From Propionivibrio limicola (GTDB taxonomy: Bacteria; Pseudomonadota; Gammaproteobacteria; Burkholderiales; Rhodocyclaceae): a stretch of DNA of 64,000 nt. How positions within the stretch are numbered: position 1 is the stretch's first letter; each line of letters opens with the position of its first letter. The stretch is taken from positions 124,001 to 188,000 of the forward strand of contig NZ_SSSR01000003.1 in the NCBI RefSeq assembly GCF_009469695.1, given 5' to 3'. The position numbers were made by a program, and so were the translations under genes. Of the stretch, positions 27,961 through 45,758 are shown in pieces. The notes under the pieces were generated by a model. It did not search any database and had not been told where the DNA came from. It was given only the letters and a program-made list of their open reading frames with translations.

Positions 27961-28087
27961 TGCCCGTTATTTGAATCCCCGGCCGTGGTTGAGTATGGTG
28001 AAAGAGGCCAGCACAGCACCAGAATGATTCCCGCCGTGCGGGATGATGCCAAACAAGCGATGGCCGGGATTGTCGAAGGGAGGGCTC

Positions 28088-28681
28088 ATGTTCGAAGTTC
28101 GCATTCATGGCCGGGGCGGGCAAGGCGTGGTGACGGCGGCCGAAATGCTGTCGATCGCCGCCTTCGAGGATGGTTTCTATGCGCAGGCCTTCCCGAGTTT
28201 TGGTTCCGAACGGACCGGGGCGCCGGTTGTTGCCTTCTGCCGGCTGGCCGAACGGGAAATCCGCTCGCGCGAGCCGATCATGGCGCCGGACGCGCTGATC
28301 ATCCAGGATCCGACCCTGCTGCATCAGGTGGATGTCTTTGCCGGCCTGAAAAAAGGCGGTTTCGTCCTGATCAATACCAGAAACACGTTTGCCGAACTCG
28401 GCTTGGGCGATGCCCTGCGCGACTGGCCAGCCGGCCGCCTATGCACGCTGGCGGCGACCGATCTGGGGCTGAAGCACGTCGGACGGCCGTTGCCGAACGT
28501 GCCGCTGCTCGGCGGTTTTGCGGCCCTGTCTGGAGTGATCCGGCTGGAATCGGTGTGCAAGGCCATCAACGACAAGTTCTCCGGCAAGGTGGCGCAGGGG
28601 AACGTGGCGGCGGCGACGGCGGCGTATGCCCTCGTGCGTGCCGCCATTGAGACCGAGCGGCAGGAGGTGGCCCATGCTTAA
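28088..28681 (+). CDS. 2-oxoacid:acceptor oxidoreductase, gamma subunit, 197 aa
   Basis: Gamma-type subunit of a thiamine-dependent 2-oxoacid oxidoreductase (POR superfamily). The N-terminal HGRGGQGVVTAAEMLSIAAFEDG and PSFGSERTGAPVVAFCR are diagnostic. ATG 28088 gives MFEVRIHGRGGQG, with AGGGAGGG just upstream; an earlier ATG at 28043 has no ribosome site. It is the first gene of a four-gene operon (gamma, alpha, beta, flavoprotein), overlapping the alpha gene by eight bases. The 2-oxoacid cannot be read from the sequence; pyruvate and phenylglyoxylate enzymes have similar subunit sets. Confidence 0.9.
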   Translation: MFEVRIHGRGGQGVVTAAEMLSIAAFEDGFYAQAFPSFGSERTGAPVVAFCRLAEREIRSREPIMAPDALIIQDPTLLHQVDVFAGLKKGGFVLINTRNTFAELGLGDALRDWPAGRLCTLAATDLGLKHVGRPLPNVPLLGGFAALSGVIRLESVCKAINDKFSGKVAQGNVAAATAAYALVRAAIETERQEVAHA

Positions 28682-29939
28682 GCAGATCGAAGGTTCGCGC
28701 GCCGTCGCCGAAGCGGTCGCCCTGTGCCGCCCGGATGTGATCTGCGCCTATCCGATTTCGCCGCAGACGCACATCGTCGAGGGGCTCGGCGAGATGGTGA
28801 AGGCGGGAGCGATTGCGCCGTGCGAATTCATCAACGTTGAATCGGAGTTCGCTGCCATGAGCGTGGCCATCGGTGCGTCGGCGGCAGGCGCGAGAAGCTA
28901 TACGGCGACGGCGTCGCAAGGGTTGCTGTTCATGGTCGAGGCAGTCTATAACGCGTCTGGCCTCGGTCTGCCGATCGTGATGACGGTGGCCAACCGCGCC
29001 ATCGGCGCGCCGATCAATATCTGGAACGACCATTCGGATGCCGTCTCGCAGCGCGACAGCGGCTGGCTGCAGCTTTTCGCGGAGACCAATCAGGAAGCCG
29101 CCGATCTGCACATCCAGGCGTTCCGGATCGCCGAAGAATTGAGCCTGCCGGTCATGGTGTGCATGGACGGCTTCATCCTGACGCATGCTTACGAGCGCGT
29201 CGACCTGCCGACGCAGGAGATGGTCGATGCCTTCCTGCCGCCTTACGCGCCGCGCCAGGTGCTTGATCCGGGCGAGCCGGTGACGATCGGCACCATGGTC
29301 GGGCCGGAAGCCTTCACCGAAGTGCGCTATCTCGCCCATGAGAAACAGCGGCAGGCGCTGGAACTGATGCCCGCGGTCGCCGCCGAGTTTCGGGCGGCGT
29401 TTGGCCGCGACTCGGGCGGATTGGTGCGCGGCTACCGGCTGGACGATGCCGAAACGGTCGTCATCGCCATGGGCTCGGTGCTCGGTACGCTCAAGGATAC
29501 GGTCGATGAGCTGCGCGATGCCGGTGTGAACATCGGCGTCCTCGGTGTCGTCTCGTTCCGGCCGTTTCCCTCCGCCGCCGTGCGCGCCGCCCTCCAATCG
29601 GTGCGGCGGCTGGTCGTGCTGGAGAAATACTTCGCGCTCGGCAGCGGTGGCGTCCTTGCCGCCGACGTGCAGATGGCGCTCGGGAAGAACGGCGGCGAAA
29701 TCTATTCGGTCATTGCCGGACTGGGCGGGCGGCCGATCACCAAGAAGTCGTTGCGTGGGCTGCTGGAAATGGCGGTGCGCGACGAACTGGTGCAGCTGAC
29801 TTTCCTCGACCTCGACCGCACGCTCGTCGCCAAACAGCTGGCGCGCGAGCGTCAGACACGGCGCTCGGGGCCGGCCGCCGAGAGCATCCTGCGCGACGTG
29901 CATGGCACGATGGCACGAAATGAAGGGAAGAAATCATGA
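28674..29939 (+). CDS. 2-oxoacid:acceptor oxidoreductase, alpha subunit, 421 aa
   Basis: Alpha subunit of the POR superfamily, with pyrimidine-binding and transketolase C-terminal-like domains. MLKQIEGSRAVAEAVALCRPDVICAYPISPQTHIVE is the N-terminal signature, with FINVESEFAAMSVAIGASAAGARSYTATASQGL next. A C-terminal domain (VIAMGSVLGTLKDTVDELRDAGVNIGVLGVVSFRPFP) follows. Length fits separate alpha subunits of pyruvate or phenylglyoxylate enzymes, not the fused single-chain type. ATG 28674 overlaps the gamma gene, and the stop overlaps the beta start by four bases. Confidence 0.92.
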   Translation: MLKQIEGSRAVAEAVALCRPDVICAYPISPQTHIVEGLGEMVKAGAIAPCEFINVESEFAAMSVAIGASAAGARSYTATASQGLLFMVEAVYNASGLGLPIVMTVANRAIGAPINIWNDHSDAVSQRDSGWLQLFAETNQEAADLHIQAFRIAEELSLPVMVCMDGFILTHAYERVDLPTQEMVDAFLPPYAPRQVLDPGEPVTIGTMVGPEAFTEVRYLAHEKQRQALELMPAVAAEFRAAFGRDSGGLVRGYRLDDAETVVIAMGSVLGTLKDTVDELRDAGVNIGVLGVVSFRPFPSAAVRAALQSVRRLVVLEKYFALGSGGVLAADVQMALGKNGGEIYSVIAGLGGRPITKKSLRGLLEMAVRDELVQLTFLDLDRTLVAKQLARERQTRRSGPAAESILRDVHGTMARNEGKKS

Positions 29940-30949
29940 GCTTTCAACCCGTCAAGTTCTACCAGACCGGCACCTTCACGGTCGGCAACCGCCTGCTGGC
30001 GCCCGAACAGCGGAGCGTCCAGGCGGCAACGTCGCGGCGCAATTCGCTCAATTCCGGCCATCGCGCCTGTCAGGGGTGCGGCGAGGCGCTCGGCGCGCGT
30101 TACGCGATCGATGCGGCGATGGAGGCGACCGGCAACCGGATGGTGGTCGTCAATGCCACCGGCTGCCTCGAAGTCTTCTCGACGCCGTATCCGGAAACGT
30201 CGTGGCAGATTCCGTGGATTCACTCGCTGTTCGGCAACGCGCCGGCGGTGGCGACCGGCGTGGCCGCCGCGCTGAAGGTCAAGCGCCTGAAGGGCCTGCT
30301 CGGCGACGTGCGCGTGGTGGCGCAGGGCGGCGATGGCGGGACGACCGATATCGGCTTTGGCTGCCTTTCCGGCATGTTCGAGCGCAACGACGACGTGTTC
30401 TACATCTGCTACGACAACGGCGGCTACATGAATACCGGCGTCCAGCGCAGCTCGGCGACTCCGCCGGCAGCGCGGACGGCGACGACCGAGGCCGTCGGCC
30501 CGACGCCGGGCCATGCCTTCGGTCAGGGCAAGTTCGTGCCGGCGATTGCGATGGCGCATGACATTCCGTATGTGGCGACGGCGACCGTCGCCGACCTGCG
30601 CGACCTCGAATACAAGGTCAGGAAGGCGATGACGTTCCGCGGCGCGCGCTACCTGCACATTCTCGTGCCGTGTCCACTCGGCTGGGGTGCGGCATCCAAG
30701 GACACCCTCCGGATCGCCCGGCTGGCCAAGGAAACCGGCGTTTTTCCGGTGTTCGAGGCCGAATCCGGTGAGCTGACCGGTTCGTCAAAAATCCGCCACG
30801 TCTTGCCGGTCGAGGAATATTTGCGGCCGCAGAAGCGATTCGCCCACCTCTTCGGCCCGAAGCCGGACGTGGCCGCGATCGCCCGTCTACAGGCGCTGGC
30901 CAACCGGAATATCCGCAAATACCGCCTGCTTGACGAAGAGGCGCTGTAA
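29936..30949 (+). CDS. 2-oxoacid:acceptor oxidoreductase, TPP-binding beta subunit, 337 aa
   Basis: Beta subunit, which binds thiamine diphosphate and a 4Fe-4S cluster. The TPP/Mg motif is GGDGGTTDIGFGCLSGMFERN with YDNGGYMNTGVQRS following. Cysteines in RACQGCGEALG (near 41-44), NATGCLEV and a later LVPCPLGW are placed as in pyruvate:ferredoxin oxidoreductase beta chains. The operon has no separate delta (ferredoxin-like) subunit; the next gene carries ferredoxin motifs and may replace it. Confidence 0.93.
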   Translation: MSFQPVKFYQTGTFTVGNRLLAPEQRSVQAATSRRNSLNSGHRACQGCGEALGARYAIDAAMEATGNRMVVVNATGCLEVFSTPYPETSWQIPWIHSLFGNAPAVATGVAAALKVKRLKGLLGDVRVVAQGGDGGTTDIGFGCLSGMFERNDDVFYICYDNGGYMNTGVQRSSATPPAARTATTEAVGPTPGHAFGQGKFVPAIAMAHDIPYVATATVADLRDLEYKVRKAMTFRGARYLHILVPCPLGWGAASKDTLRIARLAKETGVFPVFEAESGELTGSSKIRHVLPVEEYLRPQKRFAHLFGPKPDVAAIARLQALANRNIRKYRLLDEEAL

Positions 30950-30962
30950 CGGAGGTATGGCG

Positions 30963-32585
30963 ATGGACAAGCCTTTTGCAATCACTCTCGATCCCGGCTC
31001 GTCGCTGGCCAATCGCACCGGGTCGTGGCGCACCGAGCGGCCGGTTTATGTCGACCGTCTGCCGCCGTGCAACAACGCGTGCCCGGCCGGCGAGGACATT
31101 CAGGGTTGGTTGTACCATGCCGAATCCGGCGACTACGAGGCCGCCTGGCGGCACCTGACCCGCGACAATCCCTTCCCGGCGATCATGGGCCGGGTTTGTT
31201 ATCACTCCTGCGAAACCGCCTGCAACCGGGGGCGGCTCGATGAGGCGGTCGGCATCAACGCCGTCGAACGTTTTCTCGGCGACGAAGCGATCCGGCGCGG
31301 CTGGCAGTTCGCCAAACCGGAAACGGAAACCGGCAAGCATGTGCTGATCGTCGGTGCCGGGCCGGCCGGCATGTCGGCGGCGTACCACCTGCGCCGTTCC
31401 GGGCATCGCGTCACCGTCCATGAGGCGGGGCCGTTGCTCGGCGGCATGATGCGCTTCGGCATTCCCAAGTATCGGCTACCGCGCGACGTGCTCGACGCGG
31501 AAATGAGGCGGGTGATCGACATGGGCGTCGAGGTGGTGCTGAACAGCAAGGTCGGCAACCTGCTGGCGACGATGCAGGACGGCCGGTTCGACGCGGCTTT
31601 TCTCGCGGTCGGCGCGCATATCGGCAAGCGGGCGAGCATCCCGGCCGGGACCGTAGCGCGAATCCTCGATGCCGTCTCCGTGTTGCGCAGCATGGAGGGT
31701 GAGGAAAAGCCGCTGCTCGGCCGGCGCGTTGTGGTTTATGGCGGCGGTAATACGGCGATCGACGTGGCGCGGACCGCCCGGAGAATGGGTGCTGAGCCGA
31801 TCATCGTTTACCGCCGCACCCGCGACAAGATGCCGGCGCACGATCTGGAGGTCGAAGAGGCGTTGCAGGAAGGCGTGATGATCAAATGGCTGTCGACGAT
31901 CCGGCAGGCCGGCGAATCGTCGATCACGGTCGAGAAAATGGTGCTCGATGAGTCGGGCTTCCCGCAGCCGACCGGCGAATTCGAAACGCTCGAAGCCGAT
32001 TCCGTCGTGTTGGCGCTCGGGCAGGACGTCGATCTGGGCCTGCTCGACGGCGTGCCGGGGCTGGAATTCGTCGATGGCGTGGTCAAGGTCGATGGCCAGA
32101 TGATGACCGGCCACCCCGGCGTCTTTGCCGGTGGCGACATGGTACCGACCGACCGCAACATCACCGTTGGCGTCGGGCACGGCAAGAAGGCGGCGCGCCA
32201 TATCGACGCCTGGCTGCGCGGCACGACCTATGTGGCGCCGCCCAAACATCCGCTGGCCACTTTCGAGCGGCTCAATACCTGGTACTACTCGGACGCGCCG
32301 CAGACCGTGCGGCCGGTGCTCGACATCATTCGCCGCCAGTCGACCTTCGAGGAAGTGCAGGGCGGGCTGGACGAAACGAACGCCTTGTTCGAGGCGCGGC
32401 GCTGTCTGTCCTGCGGCAACTGCTTCGAGTGCGACAACTGCTACGGCGTCTGTCCCGACAACGCCGTGATCAAACTCGGCCCGGGCCAGCGTTTCGAGAT
32501 CAATTACGACTACTGCAAGGGTTGCGGTCTGTGTGCCGCGGAATGCCCGTGCGGTGCGATCGATATGGTGCCGGAGGACGGCTGA
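30963..32585 (+). CDS. GltD-like FAD/NAD(P) oxidoreductase with C-terminal 2[4Fe-4S] ferredoxin domain, 540 aa
   Basis: Likely electron-transfer subunit linking the 2-oxoacid oxidoreductase to NAD(P)H or ferredoxin. Parts: an N-terminal Fe-S domain as in glutamate synthase small subunit (PPCNNACPAGEDIQGWLY; RVCYHSCETACNRG), an FAD Rossmann motif (VLIVGAGPAGMSAAYHL, about 119-135), an NAD(P) Rossmann motif (VVVYGGGNTAIDVAR), and a ferredoxin-like C-terminus (RRCLSCGNCFECDNCYGVCP; YCKGCGLCAAECPCGAIDM). Two ATG codons are in frame: 30957 directly abuts GGAGGT, so 30963, six bases from it, is preferred. It resembles the flavin subunit of phenylglyoxylate dehydrogenase; the partner is inference. 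Confidence 0.88.
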   Translation: MDKPFAITLDPGSSLANRTGSWRTERPVYVDRLPPCNNACPAGEDIQGWLYHAESGDYEAAWRHLTRDNPFPAIMGRVCYHSCETACNRGRLDEAVGINAVERFLGDEAIRRGWQFAKPETETGKHVLIVGAGPAGMSAAYHLRRSGHRVTVHEAGPLLGGMMRFGIPKYRLPRDVLDAEMRRVIDMGVEVVLNSKVGNLLATMQDGRFDAAFLAVGAHIGKRASIPAGTVARILDAVSVLRSMEGEEKPLLGRRVVVYGGGNTAIDVARTARRMGAEPIIVYRRTRDKMPAHDLEVEEALQEGVMIKWLSTIRQAGESSITVEKMVLDESGFPQPTGEFETLEADSVVLALGQDVDLGLLDGVPGLEFVDGVVKVDGQMMTGHPGVFAGGDMVPTDRNITVGVGHGKKAARHIDAWLRGTTYVAPPKHPLATFERLNTWYYSDAPQTVRPVLDIIRRQSTFEEVQGGLDETNALFEARRCLSCGNCFECDNCYGVCPDNAVIKLGPGQRFEINYDYCKGCGLCAAECPCGAIDMVPEDG

Positions 32586-32614
32586 CGGCTGGTTTGCCGT
32601 GCGGGTGAACGGAC

Positions 32615-32656
32615 AACGGGGCGGAGACCATCGGTCACCGCCCCGTTTCGTTTCTT
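32615..32656 (+). terminator. Intrinsic terminator of the oxidoreductase operon
   Basis: A 10-bp stem (AACGGGGCGG at 32615-32624 with its complement at 32638-32647) and 13-base loop are followed by the T-rich TCGTTTCTT. It lies between this operon and the convergent radical SAM gene. Confidence 0.72.
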
Positions 32657-32669
32657 GCGGCCGCCGGTT

Positions 32670-34058
32670 TTACTGCATAAGGAAGGTCGTGTCGGTGCCT
32701 TCGTCCCAGCCGTCCCACAGATAGTCGTTGGCCTTGCCGTCGGCGATCAGGCGCAGGGCGTAATTGACCTGTTCCTTGTAGAACTCGCAGAAGGCGCCGA
32801 TCTTGTCCATGCCGCCGTTCATCTCGTGCGCCTCGGCCGGGCAGGGCGAGCCGCAGAAGTGGCGGATGGTGCAGTCGTTGCACGGCGCGAACTGGTCGAC
32901 GTTGCGCGCGGTGACGATGCGGAAAGCGTCGGACTTGAGCGCGGTCTCGACGCCGCCGGCATCCAGCAGATTGCCGCCGTTGAAGCGCGGCAGGCCGATG
33001 AACTCGCTGCACGGATAGAGGCTACCGTCAGCGGCCAGCGCGAAGAAGGCGCGGCCGCCGCCGCACGGCGAGATGTCGCACATCAGCCGGCGCGCCGTCG
33101 GCGCCAGGATGGCGAGCAGGATGTTGGCGAAGTTGGCGACCAGCAGCTTGCGCCCGGTCTGCTTGTACAACTCGTGCGAGCGGTCGAGCGCGGCGAAGAA
33201 GGCTTGCGCCATGTCGCCATCGGCCGGCTTGACGGTGCGTGCGCCGGGCAGCGTGCAGCGCAGCGTGTTGAGCATGCAGGTCGGCACTTCGTGCGCATGG
33301 AACAATTCGACCATCTGTGTCAGGTACGGCAGGTTCTCGGTGGTGCACGTGGTGATCACGCTCCACGAGCCATAGCCCTTGAGCTTGTCCATCGCCGTGA
33401 GTACCTTGTCGTGCACGCTCTTGCCGCCCCAGGTCCGGCGCGTGGCATCGGTGATGCCGGCGACCGGGCCGTCGAGCGAGAGGCCGATGCTGACGTTGCG
33501 CGAAGTCAGGAAGTCGACGGCCTCGTCGTCGAGCAGCGTGCCGTTGGTCTGCACGCCGAAGGCGAAGTCGTTGCCGAATTCCTCGATGGCGGCGAAGACG
33601 GCGCGCTTGTTCATCAGCGGCTCGGCGCCGTGGAAGATGGCGCGGGGTTTACGTTCTTGGCGGCCTTCCGGCATGACCGAACGGAAGTACTCGCGCAGCT
33701 TGCCGAGCGACTCGATCAGCTTGCTTTCCGACATGTGCTGCCCCTCGCTGCGCTGTTGGCCCGGCAGGTAGCAGTAGGTGCAGTTGAGGTTGCAGCGCTC
33801 GGTCGGGTTGAGATAGACGCCGGACGGCGTCAGCGCGAAGCGCAGGGCGTGCAGTTCGCGGGCGAAGCTGTCGGCTTTTTCGCGGAAGCTCTCGGCTAGC
33901 GGCGAGCCGGCGGCGGTCGATTCGGCGATGCGCGTCTTGTCGACGAGCGCCCAGAAGGCGGTGTTCGGGTCGGTAACCGCCGCGTAGGCTTCGTGGCCGA
34001 TGTCCACGGGAAGCAGCGGGCCAGCCGCAGCGGCCCGGTCAAGTTCAGCGACGGTCAT
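32670..34058 (-). CDS. cbpB: Radical SAM/SPASM peptide-modifying enzyme (CbpB-like), 462 aa
   Basis: Predicted maturase of the small peptide encoded just upstream. The radical SAM cluster motif is C89-x3-C93-x2-C96 (ERCNLNCTYCYLPG), with HGAEPL (143-148) as the SAM-amine motif. A C-terminal SPASM domain for auxiliary Fe-S clusters is shown by C332 (PCGGGRAFFALAADG), C350, then C393-x2-C396-x5-C402-x3-C406 (APCNDCTIRHFCGSPCP) and C424. C327 is an extra candidate ligand. No cobalamin-binding domain precedes the SAM domain, so B12 is probably sensed by the riboswitch and not used by this enzyme. Its ATG directly follows the peptide stop codon (TAAATG). I recall NCBI naming such pairs CbpA/CbpB; the reaction is unknown to me. 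Confidence 0.9.
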   Translation of the reverse strand: MTVAELDRAAAAGPLLPVDIGHEAYAAVTDPNTAFWALVDKTRIAESTAAGSPLAESFREKADSFARELHALRFALTPSGVYLNPTERCNLNCTYCYLPGQQRSEGQHMSESKLIESLGKLREYFRSVMPEGRQERKPRAIFHGAEPLMNKRAVFAAIEEFGNDFAFGVQTNGTLLDDEAVDFLTSRNVSIGLSLDGPVAGITDATRRTWGGKSVHDKVLTAMDKLKGYGSWSVITTCTTENLPYLTQMVELFHAHEVPTCMLNTLRCTLPGARTVKPADGDMAQAFFAALDRSHELYKQTGRKLLVANFANILLAILAPTARRLMCDISPCGGGRAFFALAADGSLYPCSEFIGLPRFNGGNLLDAGGVETALKSDAFRIVTARNVDQFAPCNDCTIRHFCGSPCPAEAHEMNGGMDKIGAFCEFYKEQVNYALRLIADGKANDYLWDGWDEGTDTTFLMQ

Positions 34059-34208
34059 TTACTTGGCCGCTTTCTTGTCCATCAGCACGTAGTGCGAGAG
34101 ACCGATGCCGTCCGGGTTGCAGCTCTTGCGGATGGCGATGGTCGGGGCAGCGGCCGGTGCCGTTGATTGGGCGGCCGGATTGGTTTGGGTTTGAACGGTT
34201 TGCGACAT
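34059..34208 (-). CDS. cbpA: Modified-peptide precursor (CbpA-like), 49 aa
   Basis: Ribosomally made precursor, probably modified by the radical SAM enzyme next to it. The N-terminal half is a polar leader rich in Gln, Thr, Pro and Ala without a signal peptide. The C-terminal half reads RKSCNPDGIGLSHYVLM then DKKAAK, with a single Cys30. The ATG at 34208 is set by GAGGAG (34215-34220 on the other strand) at six-base spacing; the longer open frame starts inside the terminator hairpin and is not credible. It ends in TAA, immediately followed by the maturase ATG. It is preceded by the cobalamin riboswitch and terminator. Which residue is modified, and any cleavage site, are unknown. Confidence 0.87.
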   Translation of the reverse strand: MSQTVQTQTNPAAQSTAPAAAPTIAIRKSCNPDGIGLSHYVLMDKKAAK

Positions 34209-34239
34209 GTTCCACTCCTCGGGAAATAAAAATACAAAA

Positions 34240-34285
34240 GGGCTCCGGCTGAAAGCACACGGCTGTATGCCTTCAGCCGGAGCCC
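34240..34285 (-). terminator. Riboswitch-controlled intrinsic terminator in the cbpA leader
   Basis: On the transcribed strand, GGGCTCCGGCTGAAG (34285 to 34271) pairs with a complementary arm (34255 to 34240) across a 15-base loop, then TTTTGTATTTTT follows. The stem is about 15 bp. Its 5' arm can instead pair with CGGAGCTC (34299 to 34292), so terminator and antiterminator exclude each other. Confidence 0.88.
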
Positions 34286-34299
34286 TTGCCTGAGCTCCG
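34278..34299 (-). promoter_or_regulatory. Candidate antiterminator hairpin
   Basis: In the RNA, CGGAGCUC (34299 to 34292) can pair with GGGCUCCG (34285 to 34278) through eight pairs, one of them U-G, with loop AGGCAA. The 3' arm is the first half of the terminator stem. Formation would keep transcription running into cbpA. Deduced by eye from base pairing. Confidence 0.6.
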
Positions 34300-34302
34300 C
34301 TT

Positions 34303-34463
34303 CGGTTCGACACGTCTTCTGGCTACCGGATCAGCCGAATCGCCGCACCTTCCCGGCGGGGTAGTCCCCGTCAGTGGCTGGTCTTGCGACCTTGCAGCAT
34401 TCGTCCCCGGATACAGCGGCGGGCCCGCCACGGATTCGCACCGTGTTCCGTTACGTCAAACCG
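34303..34463 (-). ncRNA. Cobalamin riboswitch aptamer upstream of cbpA-cbpB
   Basis: The minus strand shows the hallmarks of the B12 aptamer in order: ACGGTGCGAATCCGTGG, then GGGCCCGCCGCTGTA, then the GCCACTG element, then the B12 box TAGCCAGAAGACGTGTC. The closing P1 stem can be drawn: CGGUUUGAC (34463 to 34455) with GUCGAACCG (34311 to 34303), nine pairs. The length of about 160 bases is on the short side of the class. It is followed by the antiterminator/terminator region, so control is probably at transcription termination, with B12 expected to turn expression off as in most members of the class. Confidence 0.93.
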
Positions 34464-34475
34464 AATGGAGCGTGC

Positions 34476-34504
34476 ATTCTCCATGCCGACCCGCTTCGGG
34501 TCAA
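34476..34504 (-). promoter_or_regulatory. Candidate sigma-70 promoter for the cbpAB leader
   Basis: TTGACC (34504 to 34499, five of six to -35) and GAGAAT (34481 to 34476, four of six to -10) are separated by 17 bases. The expected start near 34469 is about six bases before the riboswitch P1 stem, which fits well. It lies downstream of the hydrolase stop codon. Confidence 0.55.
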
Positions 34505-34514
34505 GCCGGCCACA

Positions 34515-35162
34515 TTAAACGGCGTGGTCGTGCCAGGTGCGCAGGATGATGTCGCGCAGGAGGTGCAGGCGACGGTGGAAAAAGTGGTCGGCGCCGGGAA
34601 TGACGACGACCGGCAGTTCGAGCGGCTCCGCCCAGGCGAGGACGTTGGCGAGCGGCACAGTTTCGTCGGCCGAGCCGTGGATGATGAGCGTGTCGCTGGC
34701 GACGGCGCGTGTCACATAGTTGCGCGCGCCTTCAATGTAGCCAGCGGCGGTGCCAACGAGGACGAGGCGTTGCGCCGGTTCGCCTGCGGCAGCGAGCGCT
34801 TCGGCGACGCGCGTTTGCACGTAGGCGCCGAACGAGAAACCGGCGAGCACGACCGGCAGTTCGCCGAAGCTGTGCCGCGCCTCGTCGAGGACGGCGAGCA
34901 GGTCGTCGGTCTCGCCGCGGCCGTCGTCATGCGTTCCTTCGCTTGCGCCCACGCCGCGAAAGTTCGGGCGCAGGGCGATGTAGTTGAGGCGGGTGAACGT
35001 TCTGGCCAGCGTGTGCACGACCTTGTTGGTGTGGGTGCCGCCGAAGAGCGGGTGCGGGTGGGCGATGAGCGCGATTCCGCACGGCGCTTCCGGGGCTTCG
35101 ATGATCGTCTCGATGCGGCCGGCCGGGCCGGCGATGAAATGGATGGATTCGCTCGGTTTCAT
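34515..35162 (-). CDS. Alpha/beta-hydrolase (dienelactone hydrolase/YghX-like), 215 aa
   Basis: Cytoplasmic alpha/beta-hydrolase of unknown substrate, of the group that includes CocE/NonD-like small hydrolases in betaproteobacteria. The N-terminal IALIAHPHPLFGGTHTNKVVHTLAR segment, the LRPNFRGVGASEG loop, the nucleophile elbow AGFSFGAYVQ, the acid in IIHGSADETVPL and the base in PGADHFFHRRL are all visible. The ATG at 35162 gives MKPSESIHFIAG with GGAGAGGG upstream; the open frame extends 101 codons further without support. It lies immediately upstream of the cobalamin riboswitch in the same direction, but the cbp promoter candidate is downstream of its stop. Confidence 0.85.
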   Translation of the reverse strand: MKPSESIHFIAGPAGRIETIIEAPEAPCGIALIAHPHPLFGGTHTNKVVHTLARTFTRLNYIALRPNFRGVGASEGTHDDGRGETDDLLAVLDEARHSFGELPVVLAGFSFGAYVQTRVAEALAAAGEPAQRLVLVGTAAGYIEGARNYVTRAVASDTLIIHGSADETVPLANVLAWAEPLELPVVVIPGADHFFHRRLHLLRDIILRTWHDHAV

Positions 35163-35298
35163 GGTGCTCGTTCCCTCTCCTGCGGCGATTGCGCCGGCAA
35201 GGCGCCATTCTATCTCCGGCCATCGAGGCCTCGGCAATCGCTGGCCCCTTGCGCTTCTGCTATCCTCCTCCCTTCCTGCGCCATGCCGATCACCGATC

Positions 35299-35526
35299 AT
35301 GAAATACCTGTTGCTGCTCGCTATTATCGTTTTTGTCGTCTGGGGGCTGCGCAAGGTTCGCCTGCGCGGGCGGGCCATGCATCCGGCGCCGCGTCCGCCG
35401 GAGCGGATGGTTCGCTGCGAGGTGTGCGGCGTCAATGTGCCGGTCAGCGAAAGTCTGCTCGTCAATGGCCGCCGTTATTGCTCGGCGGCGCATCGTGATC
35501 AGGCGGCCAGGAGCACGCGTGATTGA
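35299..35526 (+). CDS. PP0621-family small membrane-anchored zinc-ribbon protein, 75 aa
   Basis: Short protein of unknown function with one N-terminal membrane helix (KYLLLLAIIVFVVWGL) and a compact metal-site candidate: RCEVCGVNVPVSES then NGRRYCSAAH, that is CxxC followed by CxxxH. It lies directly before pilS and overlaps it by eight bases (GTGATTGA), so it is co-translated with the sensor kinase. The conserved linkage suggests a role with PilS, but nothing in the sequence shows it. I recall the family name PP0621 for such proteins. The ATG at 35299 follows the cat of an unrelated upstream frame. Confidence 0.82.
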   Translation: MKYLLLLAIIVFVVWGLRKVRLRGRAMHPAPRPPERMVRCEVCGVNVPVSESLLVNGRRYCSAAHRDQAARSTRD

Positions 35527-44681: not shown

Positions 44682-45758
44682 ATGAGCCAATTCTGGAGCC
44701 CGCTTGTTCATCGCCTGACCCCTTACGTGCCGGGCGAACAACCCAAGATTACCAACCTCGTCAAACTCAATACCAACGAAAACCCGTATCCGCCGTCGCC
44801 GCGCGCCGTGGCCGCCATGCAGGCTGAACTCGGCAAGGACGGCGCGACCTTGCGTCTTTATCCGGACCCGAATGCTGATGGGCTGAAAGCGGCGATTGCC
44901 CGTCATTTTTCCGCCTTCAACATCGCGCCGGCCCAGGTTTTTGTCGGCAACGGCTCGGACGAAGTGTTGGCTCACACGTTCATGGCGCTGCTCAAGCATG
45001 AGAAGCCGATTCTGTTGCCCGATATCAGCTACAGCTTTTACCCGGTGTATTGCGGCCTGTATGAAGTCGAGCATGCGACGATTCCGCTCGGTGAACGCTT
45101 TGAAGTGCGCGTCGATGATTACGCCCGCGACAATGGTGGCATCATCATCGCCAATCCGAATGCGCCGACCGGGCATCTGCTGTCGTTGGTCGAGATCGAG
45201 CGGCTGGTGGCGATGCATCCGGCGTCGGTTGTCGTTATCGACGAGGCGTATGTCGATTTCGGCGGCGAAACGGCGATTGCCCTGATCAATCGTTATCCCA
45301 ACCTGCTCGTGATTCGCACCTTGTCCAAGTCGCATTCGCTGGCCGGCCTGCGCGTCGGCTATGCCTTGGGCGACAAGGTGCTGATCGAGGCGCTCGAACG
45401 GGTCAAGAACAGTTTTAATTCGTATCCGATTGACCGAATTGCCTTGGCGGGCGCGACAGCCGCGATCGAGGACGCGGCTTATTTCGAAACGACGCGCCAA
45501 GCCGTCATCAAAAGCCGTGGCGCGTTGGTTGCGCAGCTCGAAGAGCTGGGTTTCGAGGTGCTGCCTTCGGGGGCGAATTTCATTTTTGTTCGCCATCCGC
45601 AGCGCGACGCGGCGCAGCTTGCCGCCTCGTTGCGCGAACGAAAAGTCATCGTTCGCCACTTCCGTTTGCCGCGCATTGAACAACACCTGCGTATTACGAT
45701 TGGCACGGATGCCGAGTGTCAGGCGTTGATTGACGCGCTGAAGGAAATCCTGGCCTGA
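44682..45758 (+). CDS. hisC: Histidinol-phosphate aminotransferase HisC, 358 aa
   Basis: PLP aminotransferase for the step before histidinol phosphate. [50 protein letters not shown] and the PLP lysine in [19 protein letters not shown] are clear. It is the only his gene of this region on the plus strand: hisB runs away from it on the left and hisD runs towards it on the right. It therefore needs its own promoter in the 150-base gap with hisB; I saw no convincing one. A shared terminator hairpin lies after its stop. Confidence 0.97.

Follow-up and report, generated by a model that had tools for sequence, protein, structure and literature searches.

The two genes considered here belong to protein families that NCBI has already named, the peptide CbpA (TIGR04164) and the radical S-adenosylmethionine (SAM) peptide maturase CbpB (TIGR04163). 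They lie in a 64,000-nucleotide stretch of the Propionivibrio limicola genome (assembly GCF_009469695.1, contig NZ_SSSR01000003.1, positions 124,001 to 188,000), which we call the window, and stand behind a cobalamin (vitamin B12) riboswitch. The window pair is a further member of the named family, with both proteins exceeding the cut-offs, the genes adjacent as they are in 78 relatives, and no difference found from the family. An earlier note, made from the DNA letters of this stretch, had suggested a CbpA/CbpB-like pair under a cobalamin riboswitch, and the profile scores together with the recurrence of the arrangement in distant relatives bear this out. No description of CbpA, CbpB, or their product appears among the literature matches listed, and these likewise contain no report of radical SAM peptides that are controlled by B12 riboswitches or involved in cobalt supply.

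The second-best NCBIfam match of CbpB is the PapB-type ranthipeptide maturase (NF047865), which like CbpB is a radical SAM enzyme with a Cys-bearing precursor, PapA, but at 117.3 bits this match falls far under the cut-off of 340, and membership of CbpB in the PapB family was rejected. A study on PapB describes thioethers from Cys to Asp or Glu in CX3D/E motifs, with other spacings accepted in vitro (PMC9413430). By sequence profile and fold, the nearest solved relatives of CbpB are CteB (PDB 5wgg and 5why), whose structure comes from a study with a title concerning thioether bond formation, and anSMEcpe (4k36-4k39); identity to these enzymes is about 20%, and a common fold does not fix the reaction. 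In its leader the locus resembles the terminator-type cobalamin riboswitches (RF00174), having an aptamer above the gathering score and then a terminator, but where such switches usually control cobamide enzymes or transporters, the one in the window appears to precede a modified-peptide pair.

The interpretation that we consider probable, although far from assured, is that the locus encodes a B12-repressed modified peptide for the acquisition or handling of cobamides, for which we infer repression, modification, and function alike. In this model, the promoter, cobalamin aptamer, intrinsic terminator, cbpA, and cbpB would together form a self-contained B12-repressed cassette (Table 1). If cobamide is plentiful, the aptamer would allow the terminator and the genes would be off, and if cobamide is scarce, the RNA would read through and both CbpA and CbpB would be made. 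CbpB, expected from its family to hold three iron-sulfur clusters, would then modify the C-terminal core of CbpA, and this modified core, with its invariant Arg, Cys, two Gly, and Leu-Ser-His, would work inside cobamide supply, in corrin makers as well as apparent salvagers. Our best guess at its task there is that it binds or handles a corrinoid or its cobalt, or acts as a small cofactor for a step of cobamide assembly. The compact layout on which the model builds had been described in the earlier note as a B12 aptamer, its own promoter candidate, a 49-residue peptide with one Cys, and a SPASM radical SAM enzyme packed together, with the ATG of the maturase touching the stop of the peptide. 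All four elements were located on the minus strand, and the cbpA stop leads directly into the cbpB ATG with zero gap.

The aptamer matches RF00174 over the entire model (positions 1-189 of 189) at 78.2 bits, where the gathering score is 31.5. We reject a chance match, since this is the sole Rfam match at gathering level in the 64 kb and the aptamer recurs in relatives. Posterior values are lower in part of the 5' arm, where the promoter overlaps. That promoter-like site, TTGACC-17-GAGAAT, is the only sigma-70-like match in 32550-34700, where shuffled sequences would lead one to expect a mean of 0.1. Of 15 aligned leaders, the window included, 14 keep its TTGAC, and most also have an A.AAT-like -10 box. 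Because the sequence between these two elements varies among the same leaders, we read the conserved TTGAC as part of a promoter that probably overlaps the 5' end of the Rfam match and starts its transcript near 34470. The earlier note had recognized the aptamer and the promoter correctly; it had overlooked this overlap and the terminator hairpin that follows.

The terminator stretch folds with -51.5 kcal/mol over 93 nucleotides and 23 pairs (z -6.4, none of 200 shuffles equally stable). A hairpin of -20 kcal/mol or lower before a U-rich tract occurs in 47 of 66 leaders, from 65 loci and the window and with an N in the leader of L035 read as A, as opposed to 8 of 198 dinucleotide shuffles. The computed pairing between the terminator arm and the upstream leader reaches -21.3 kcal/mol, as compared with -46.6 for the terminator, and is no proof of an antiterminator. 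A reporter study in Bacillus subtilis predicted a terminator for 37 of the 38 cobalamin riboswitches that repressed expression (PMC9600662). Judged from this terminator-type expression platform, repression of the cassette by B12 is likely, and the earlier proposal that the switch turns off with B12 is compatible with the frequency of such hairpins in relatives.

CbpA scores 59.4 bits against the curated TIGR04164 cut-off of 35 (model positions 1-25 of 25) and contains one Cys. To survey relatives, 84,980 species genomes were scanned by query motifs, which gave at least 512 related stretches, and all counts over 80 loci given here refer to the best 80 of these (L032-L111). The earlier note had made its reading depend on conservation of the 49-residue frame wherever relatives have the enzyme. 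A peptide precedes the enzyme in 78 of the 80, and the other two loci are contig ends with only 226 and 105 bases upstream. The 16-residue core is moreover the identical protein sequence in all 14 cases tested (the window and 13 near relatives) and is encoded by 14 different DNA sequences in which every core codon varies; on the strength of the recurrence and of these 14 versions of one core, we rejected the possibility that the frame is non-coding. Over 78 aligned cores (77 loci and the window, with L083 excluded for a one-residue insertion), Arg1, Cys4, Gly8, Gly10, Leu11, Ser12, and His13 are identical throughout; at position 14, 75 cores have Tyr and the other 3 Phe. Most of the conserved letters were demanded by the pattern that located the cores, but it fitted all 78 loci from a looser peptide search. 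The N-terminal part, the leader of the peptide, varies in length and sequence among relatives.

Antibiotics and signals are the products of many well-known radical SAM peptide systems, and CbpA might accordingly be secreted as an antimicrobial or signal peptide against competitors for B12. Transporters are not absent, inasmuch as a mixed cluster of ATP-binding cassette (ABC) ATPase open reading frames (CbiO-, BtuD-, and ABC-2-type) is represented in 17 of 81 loci. Among the named open reading frame clusters, which are not all of the clusters and still include some antisense frames of GC-rich loci, nothing that recurs beside the pair is a dedicated exporter, peptidase, or immunity gene, and this mildly favors an intracellular product. 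A core that is near-invariant across phyla behind a variable N-terminal part is also the reverse of what a diversifying antibiotic would show, and we regard secretion of this kind as highly improbable.

CbpB matches TIGR04163 with 718.5 bits against a curated cut-off of 375 (model positions 2-428 of 428), and its Pfam matches are Radical_SAM and, below threshold, SPASM (18.8 versus 21.5 bits). Across 58 relatives, identity to the window protein is 56-83%, and C89-C93-C96 and C332-G345-C350...C393-C396-C402-C406...C424 are invariant in all 59 aligned sequences. CX3CX2C followed by a seven-Cys SPASM motif is a recognized spacing pattern, and CbpB fits it. A predicted structure (predicted local distance difference test score, pLDDT, 88.7) finds CteB with E 4.5e-19 and anSMEcpe with E 1.9e-17 in Foldseek, with Z 33-34, and the corresponding sequence-profile matches have E 4.4e-32 and 4.5e-29. 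Residues 16-74 are modeled as three strands and two helices, and the whole-model alignment to CteB, which starts at residue 8, suggests an N-terminal leader-binding (RRE) domain there; searched as a domain alone, this segment gave no listed match at E <= 0.001, and the domain may still be present. No Pfam B12-binding domain was found in CbpB at E <= 0.01, which is consistent with the earlier view that B12 would be the signal and not a cofactor of the enzyme.

As to the modification itself, a thioether at Cys30 is possible. The PapA-type CX3D/E motif finds no match in CbpA, whose single Cys is followed four residues on by a Gly that is invariant in 78 of 78 cores, and Asp or Glu stands at C+3 in 50 of them. 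If a thioether forms, this Gly at the acceptor position indicates that its acceptor probably differs from that used by PapB. As a guess, the invariant Cys and His might be ligands for cobalt or a corrinoid.

The relatives link the pair to cobamides in two ways. According to our own covariance model R1, which was built from 22 aptamers and applied to all 80 loci, an aptamer lies directly upstream of the pair in 65, and the same is true of all 13 loci examined from the host family (L118-L130); judging by length, some of these lie on contigs that also contribute to the 80. Rfam itself, applied to 45 of the 80, placed an aptamer directly upstream in 30 and left the identical 15 loci without one. 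Three of these 15 (L092, L103, and L110) have less than 300 bp of upstream sequence, too little to judge, and in L044 and L048 a riboswitch sits further upstream, ahead of cobamide genes. The available flanks were also searched by tblastn with 25 representatives of cobamide and cobalt genes, most of them named via NCBIfam or Pfam. Genes for cobamide synthesis or cobalt uptake were found in 26 of the 80 loci, a count that includes a divergent TonB-receptor-like match in L105 although this is not a synthesis gene. As 11 of the 15 loci without an aptamer are among them, and 15 of the 65 with one, cbpAB either bears a B12 switch of its own or tends to have B12-related genes around it.

The neighbors named by NCBIfam or Pfam include CobB, CbiB, CobO, CobQ/CobD, CbiC, CbiD, CbiM, CbiQ, CbiO, and CobM/CbiF, as well as CbiT, CobT, CobI/CbiL, CbiG, BluB, CobU, CobJ, CobS, CbiX, and CbiJ. 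In L109 the pair is embedded in the order cobD/cobQ-cbiB-cobO-cobB-cbiC-cbpAB-cbiM-cbiQ-cbiO-cbiD, and elsewhere a second, divergent riboswitch stands ahead of cobC-cobU-cobT genes (L059, L061, and L080) or cbiB (L033). The record names of the loci, many of which are metagenome bins whose names are unverified and may be wrong, span many groups, such as Rhodocyclales, Gallionella, Myxococcales, Planctomycetota, Nitrospinales, Actinomycetes, Chloroflexi, Verrucomicrobia, Omnitrophota, Syntrophaceae, and Magnetococcales, and include the cultured carriers Azospira oryzae, Rhodoblastus acidophilus, and Aromatoleum.

These neighborhoods bear on a different explanation, in which the peptide is a backup that replaces a B12-dependent function and is made at low B12 as B12-independent isoenzymes are. 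Riboswitch control by itself would be compatible with this, and another B12 riboswitch of the host does lie upstream of a region with an anaerobic ribonucleotide reductase. A backup would have no need, however, of the synthesis and cobalt uptake genes that flank 26 of the loci, and a 49-residue peptide with one maturase would make an improbable isoenzyme; we think a backup role distinctly unlikely. The earlier note had offered both possibilities, aid to cobalamin or cobalt supply and replacement of a B12-dependent function, and the neighborhood comparison that it proposed favors the former.

The host family offers a view of which genomes carry the pair. CbpB is carried by 14 of 150 genomes of the family, and in a sample of 369 genomes from the class only the window's own genome passes the CbpB cut-off. 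Compared with the remaining 136 family genomes, carriers more often have CbiD (11 of 14 versus 34 of 136, Fisher p 1.2e-4), CobQ (14 of 14 versus 93 of 136, p 0.011, one counted genome being below the cut-off), and CbiM (6 of 14 versus 13 of 136, p 0.003, with one of the 19 positive genomes, the non-carrier G424, below the family cut-off), although these p values overstate the independence of mutually related genomes.

One could conclude from such figures that the matured peptide is concerned with cobalt and nothing else, as a chaperone or cobaltophore feeding CbiX/CbiK in anaerobic, early-insertion B12 synthesis. The enrichment of CbiM and CbiD with CbpB would fit, as would cbiM (in L103 and L109) or cbiX (in L048) directly after cbpB, and an invariant Cys and His that could bind metal. 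A review that names CobW as a chaperone for cobalt, beside the aerobic-pathway CobN (PMC7689651), may be counted on the same side. Three carriers (G391, G421, and G497) nevertheless lack CbiD at E <= 1e-30 and any CobI/CbiL match that reaches cut-off, G421 having only a weak CobI/CbiL match of 60 bits, and CobN reaches its cut-off in none of the 14 carriers, so that these three should not build the ring; CobQ is present in every carrier. G391 and G497 have a late-pathway and uptake cluster within 10 kb (cobO, cobB, and a btuB-like gene, with cbiB and bluB as well in G497), and all three genomes look like those of corrinoid salvagers. Because of these three carriers, a role in cobalt insertion alone appears unlikely.

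A broader role in cobamide acquisition or handling, which we prefer, also accords with the control that the pair shares with a cobamide gene in its own host. Over 270 nucleotides that include the terminator, the leader of the host cobT gene (L135 7290-8735, G000:C1) and the cbpA leader share 85.6% identity, and another genome of the genus, G473, has cobT next after cbpB, downstream of the cbpA riboswitch. From this likeness and gene order, we read the two leaders as paralogues, a copied control element that cbpAB and cobT share in this genus. There are five further cobalamin riboswitches in the host genome outside the window, and the leaders of the four besides that of cobT gave no blastn match to the cbpA leader at E <= 1e-3. 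One of the five heads a cbiM-cbiO-cobM-cbiX-cbiC-cbiD-cbiT-cobI-cbiG-cobJ cluster, from which the host appears to make cobamide by the early-cobalt route.

The cassette also appears to move as a whole. Azoarcus sp. Aa7 has two copies in different surroundings (L052 4167-6125 and L055 891-2849), 1,959 bp at 98.1% identity, which begin at the aptamer's 5' end and stop shortly after cbpB. In G509, a genome of the window's genus with no CbpB at E <= 1e-100, an ABC permease gene and a PRK12771-type gene end 3 bases apart, and in L060 these same genes flank the cassette. Comparison of the empty with the occupied junction identifies the putative unit gained or lost at this site as the leader plus two genes, and on sequence evidence the cassette behaves as one movable unit of about 2 kb.

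Several observations weigh against a peptide dedicated to cobamide supply under B12 repression. No credible cobamide gene was found in the window with the 25 representatives; its sole weak match (44745-45743, 28% identity to an aminotransferase-cobQ fusion) has histidine-synthesis-like genes around it, and we take it for an aminotransferase of another pathway. Over half of the loci (54 of 80) have no cobamide or cobalt gene in their flanks, no single cobamide gene is a constant partner, and the neighborhood counts were obtained on selected best matches without a random-locus control. Of the 66 leaders, 19 are without a hairpin at -20 kcal/mol, many of them from alphaproteobacterial- or actinobacterial-type loci. 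Six of the 14 carriers have CobN-like matches below cut-off, the best of which (498.8 versus 822 bits) is in G421, where a divergent cobaltochelatase may be present, and the relatedness of the family genomes has been mentioned. Finally, L034, L062, L064, and L068 have neither an aptamer nor any of the 25 cobamide and cobalt genes nearby, and Rfam finds nothing in them even at E <= 1; in L064 and L068, the gene upstream, on the opposite strand, encodes an ABC ATPase. These four loci would fit an incidental riboswitch and a pair unrelated to cobamides. To that explanation we give hardly any credence, given an aptamer in most loci, B12-related genes in most of the others, and a cassette that is copied with its aptamer attached.

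If the cassette does serve cobamide supply, then a more specific proposal can be made, which we put forward tentatively and hold to be possible but not probable. CbpA could be matured into a peptide cofactor or ligand of B12 metabolism itself, a radical-modified Cys/His peptide with a role either in binding cobalt or corrinoids or in assembling the lower ligand together with CobT or BluB, one or other of which is encoded next to cbpAB in several loci. It would be made only in cobamide shortage, and a self-regulated cassette of 2 kb would carry it from one bacterium to another. A peptide working in cobamide supply would be a further component of a cofactor system that ranks among the most studied, and a radical SAM-modified peptide is a form of component with no report there among the literature matches listed. 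With low B12 as the obvious trigger, two genes in about 2 kb, and cultured carriers, the question is directly testable.

Table 1. The cbpAB locus and its signals (positions in the window).
Feature	Position	Strand	Basis
Promoter-like site TTGACC-17-GAGAAT	34476..34504	-	Sigma-70-like match, kept TTGAC
Cobalamin riboswitch aptamer RF00174	34292..34505	-	Rfam, 78.2 bits; model R1 match 34301-34450, 159 bits (window sequence is 1 of 22 in the model)
Predicted intrinsic terminator, the expression platform (23-bp stem 34286-34239, T-rich tract)	34229..34286	-	Folding, shuffles
Shine-Dalgarno-like GAGGAG of cbpA	34215..34220	-	Read from sequence
cbpA, 49-residue precursor; conserved core RKSCNPDGIGLSHYVLMDKK in C-terminal half	34059..34208	-	TIGR04164
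cbpB, radical SAM/SPASM peptide maturase, 462 residues	32670..34058	-	TIGR04163, Pfam Radical_SAM
Hairpin between convergent cbpB and PRK12771-type gene, probable shared terminator	32616..32646	.	Read from sequence

On the 3' side of cbpB, the genes at 28043-32585 encode 2-oxoacid/pyruvate:ferredoxin oxidoreductase-like gamma, alpha, and beta subunits and a PRK12771-type NAD(P)-binding protein that ends in a PorD-like ferredoxin domain and whose gene is convergent with cbpB. A hairpin similar to the one between these convergent genes is found 3' of cbpB in L060. On the other side, 34515-35465 is an alpha/beta-hydrolase gene, and in L060 and L158 a hydrolase gene is followed by those for an ABC-2 type ATPase and permease. 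The latter two have no tblastn match in the 64 kb of the window, where the hydrolase is kept. Hydrolase and ABC-2 transporter genes were considered as parts of the cassette and rejected, as they are seen only in the same family or near relatives.

Elsewhere among the relatives, a gene about 1 kb upstream of cbpAB in L062 (3287-5524) encodes a corrinoid-protein reductive activator of the RACo type with a fused CBS domain, and five actinobacterial-type loci (L069, L070, L074, L089, and L091) have a second radical SAM/SPASM protein downstream of cbpB, with a SEC-C motif that is named in L091. In the host genome itself, one of the other cobalamin riboswitches (L131 1476-6615, G000:C52) precedes a partial frame for a citrate-type transporter, a frame for a DDE transposase, and then an NRDD anaerobic ribonucleotide reductase gene with a radical SAM activator-like gene; either the reductase or the transporter may formerly have been under this riboswitch.

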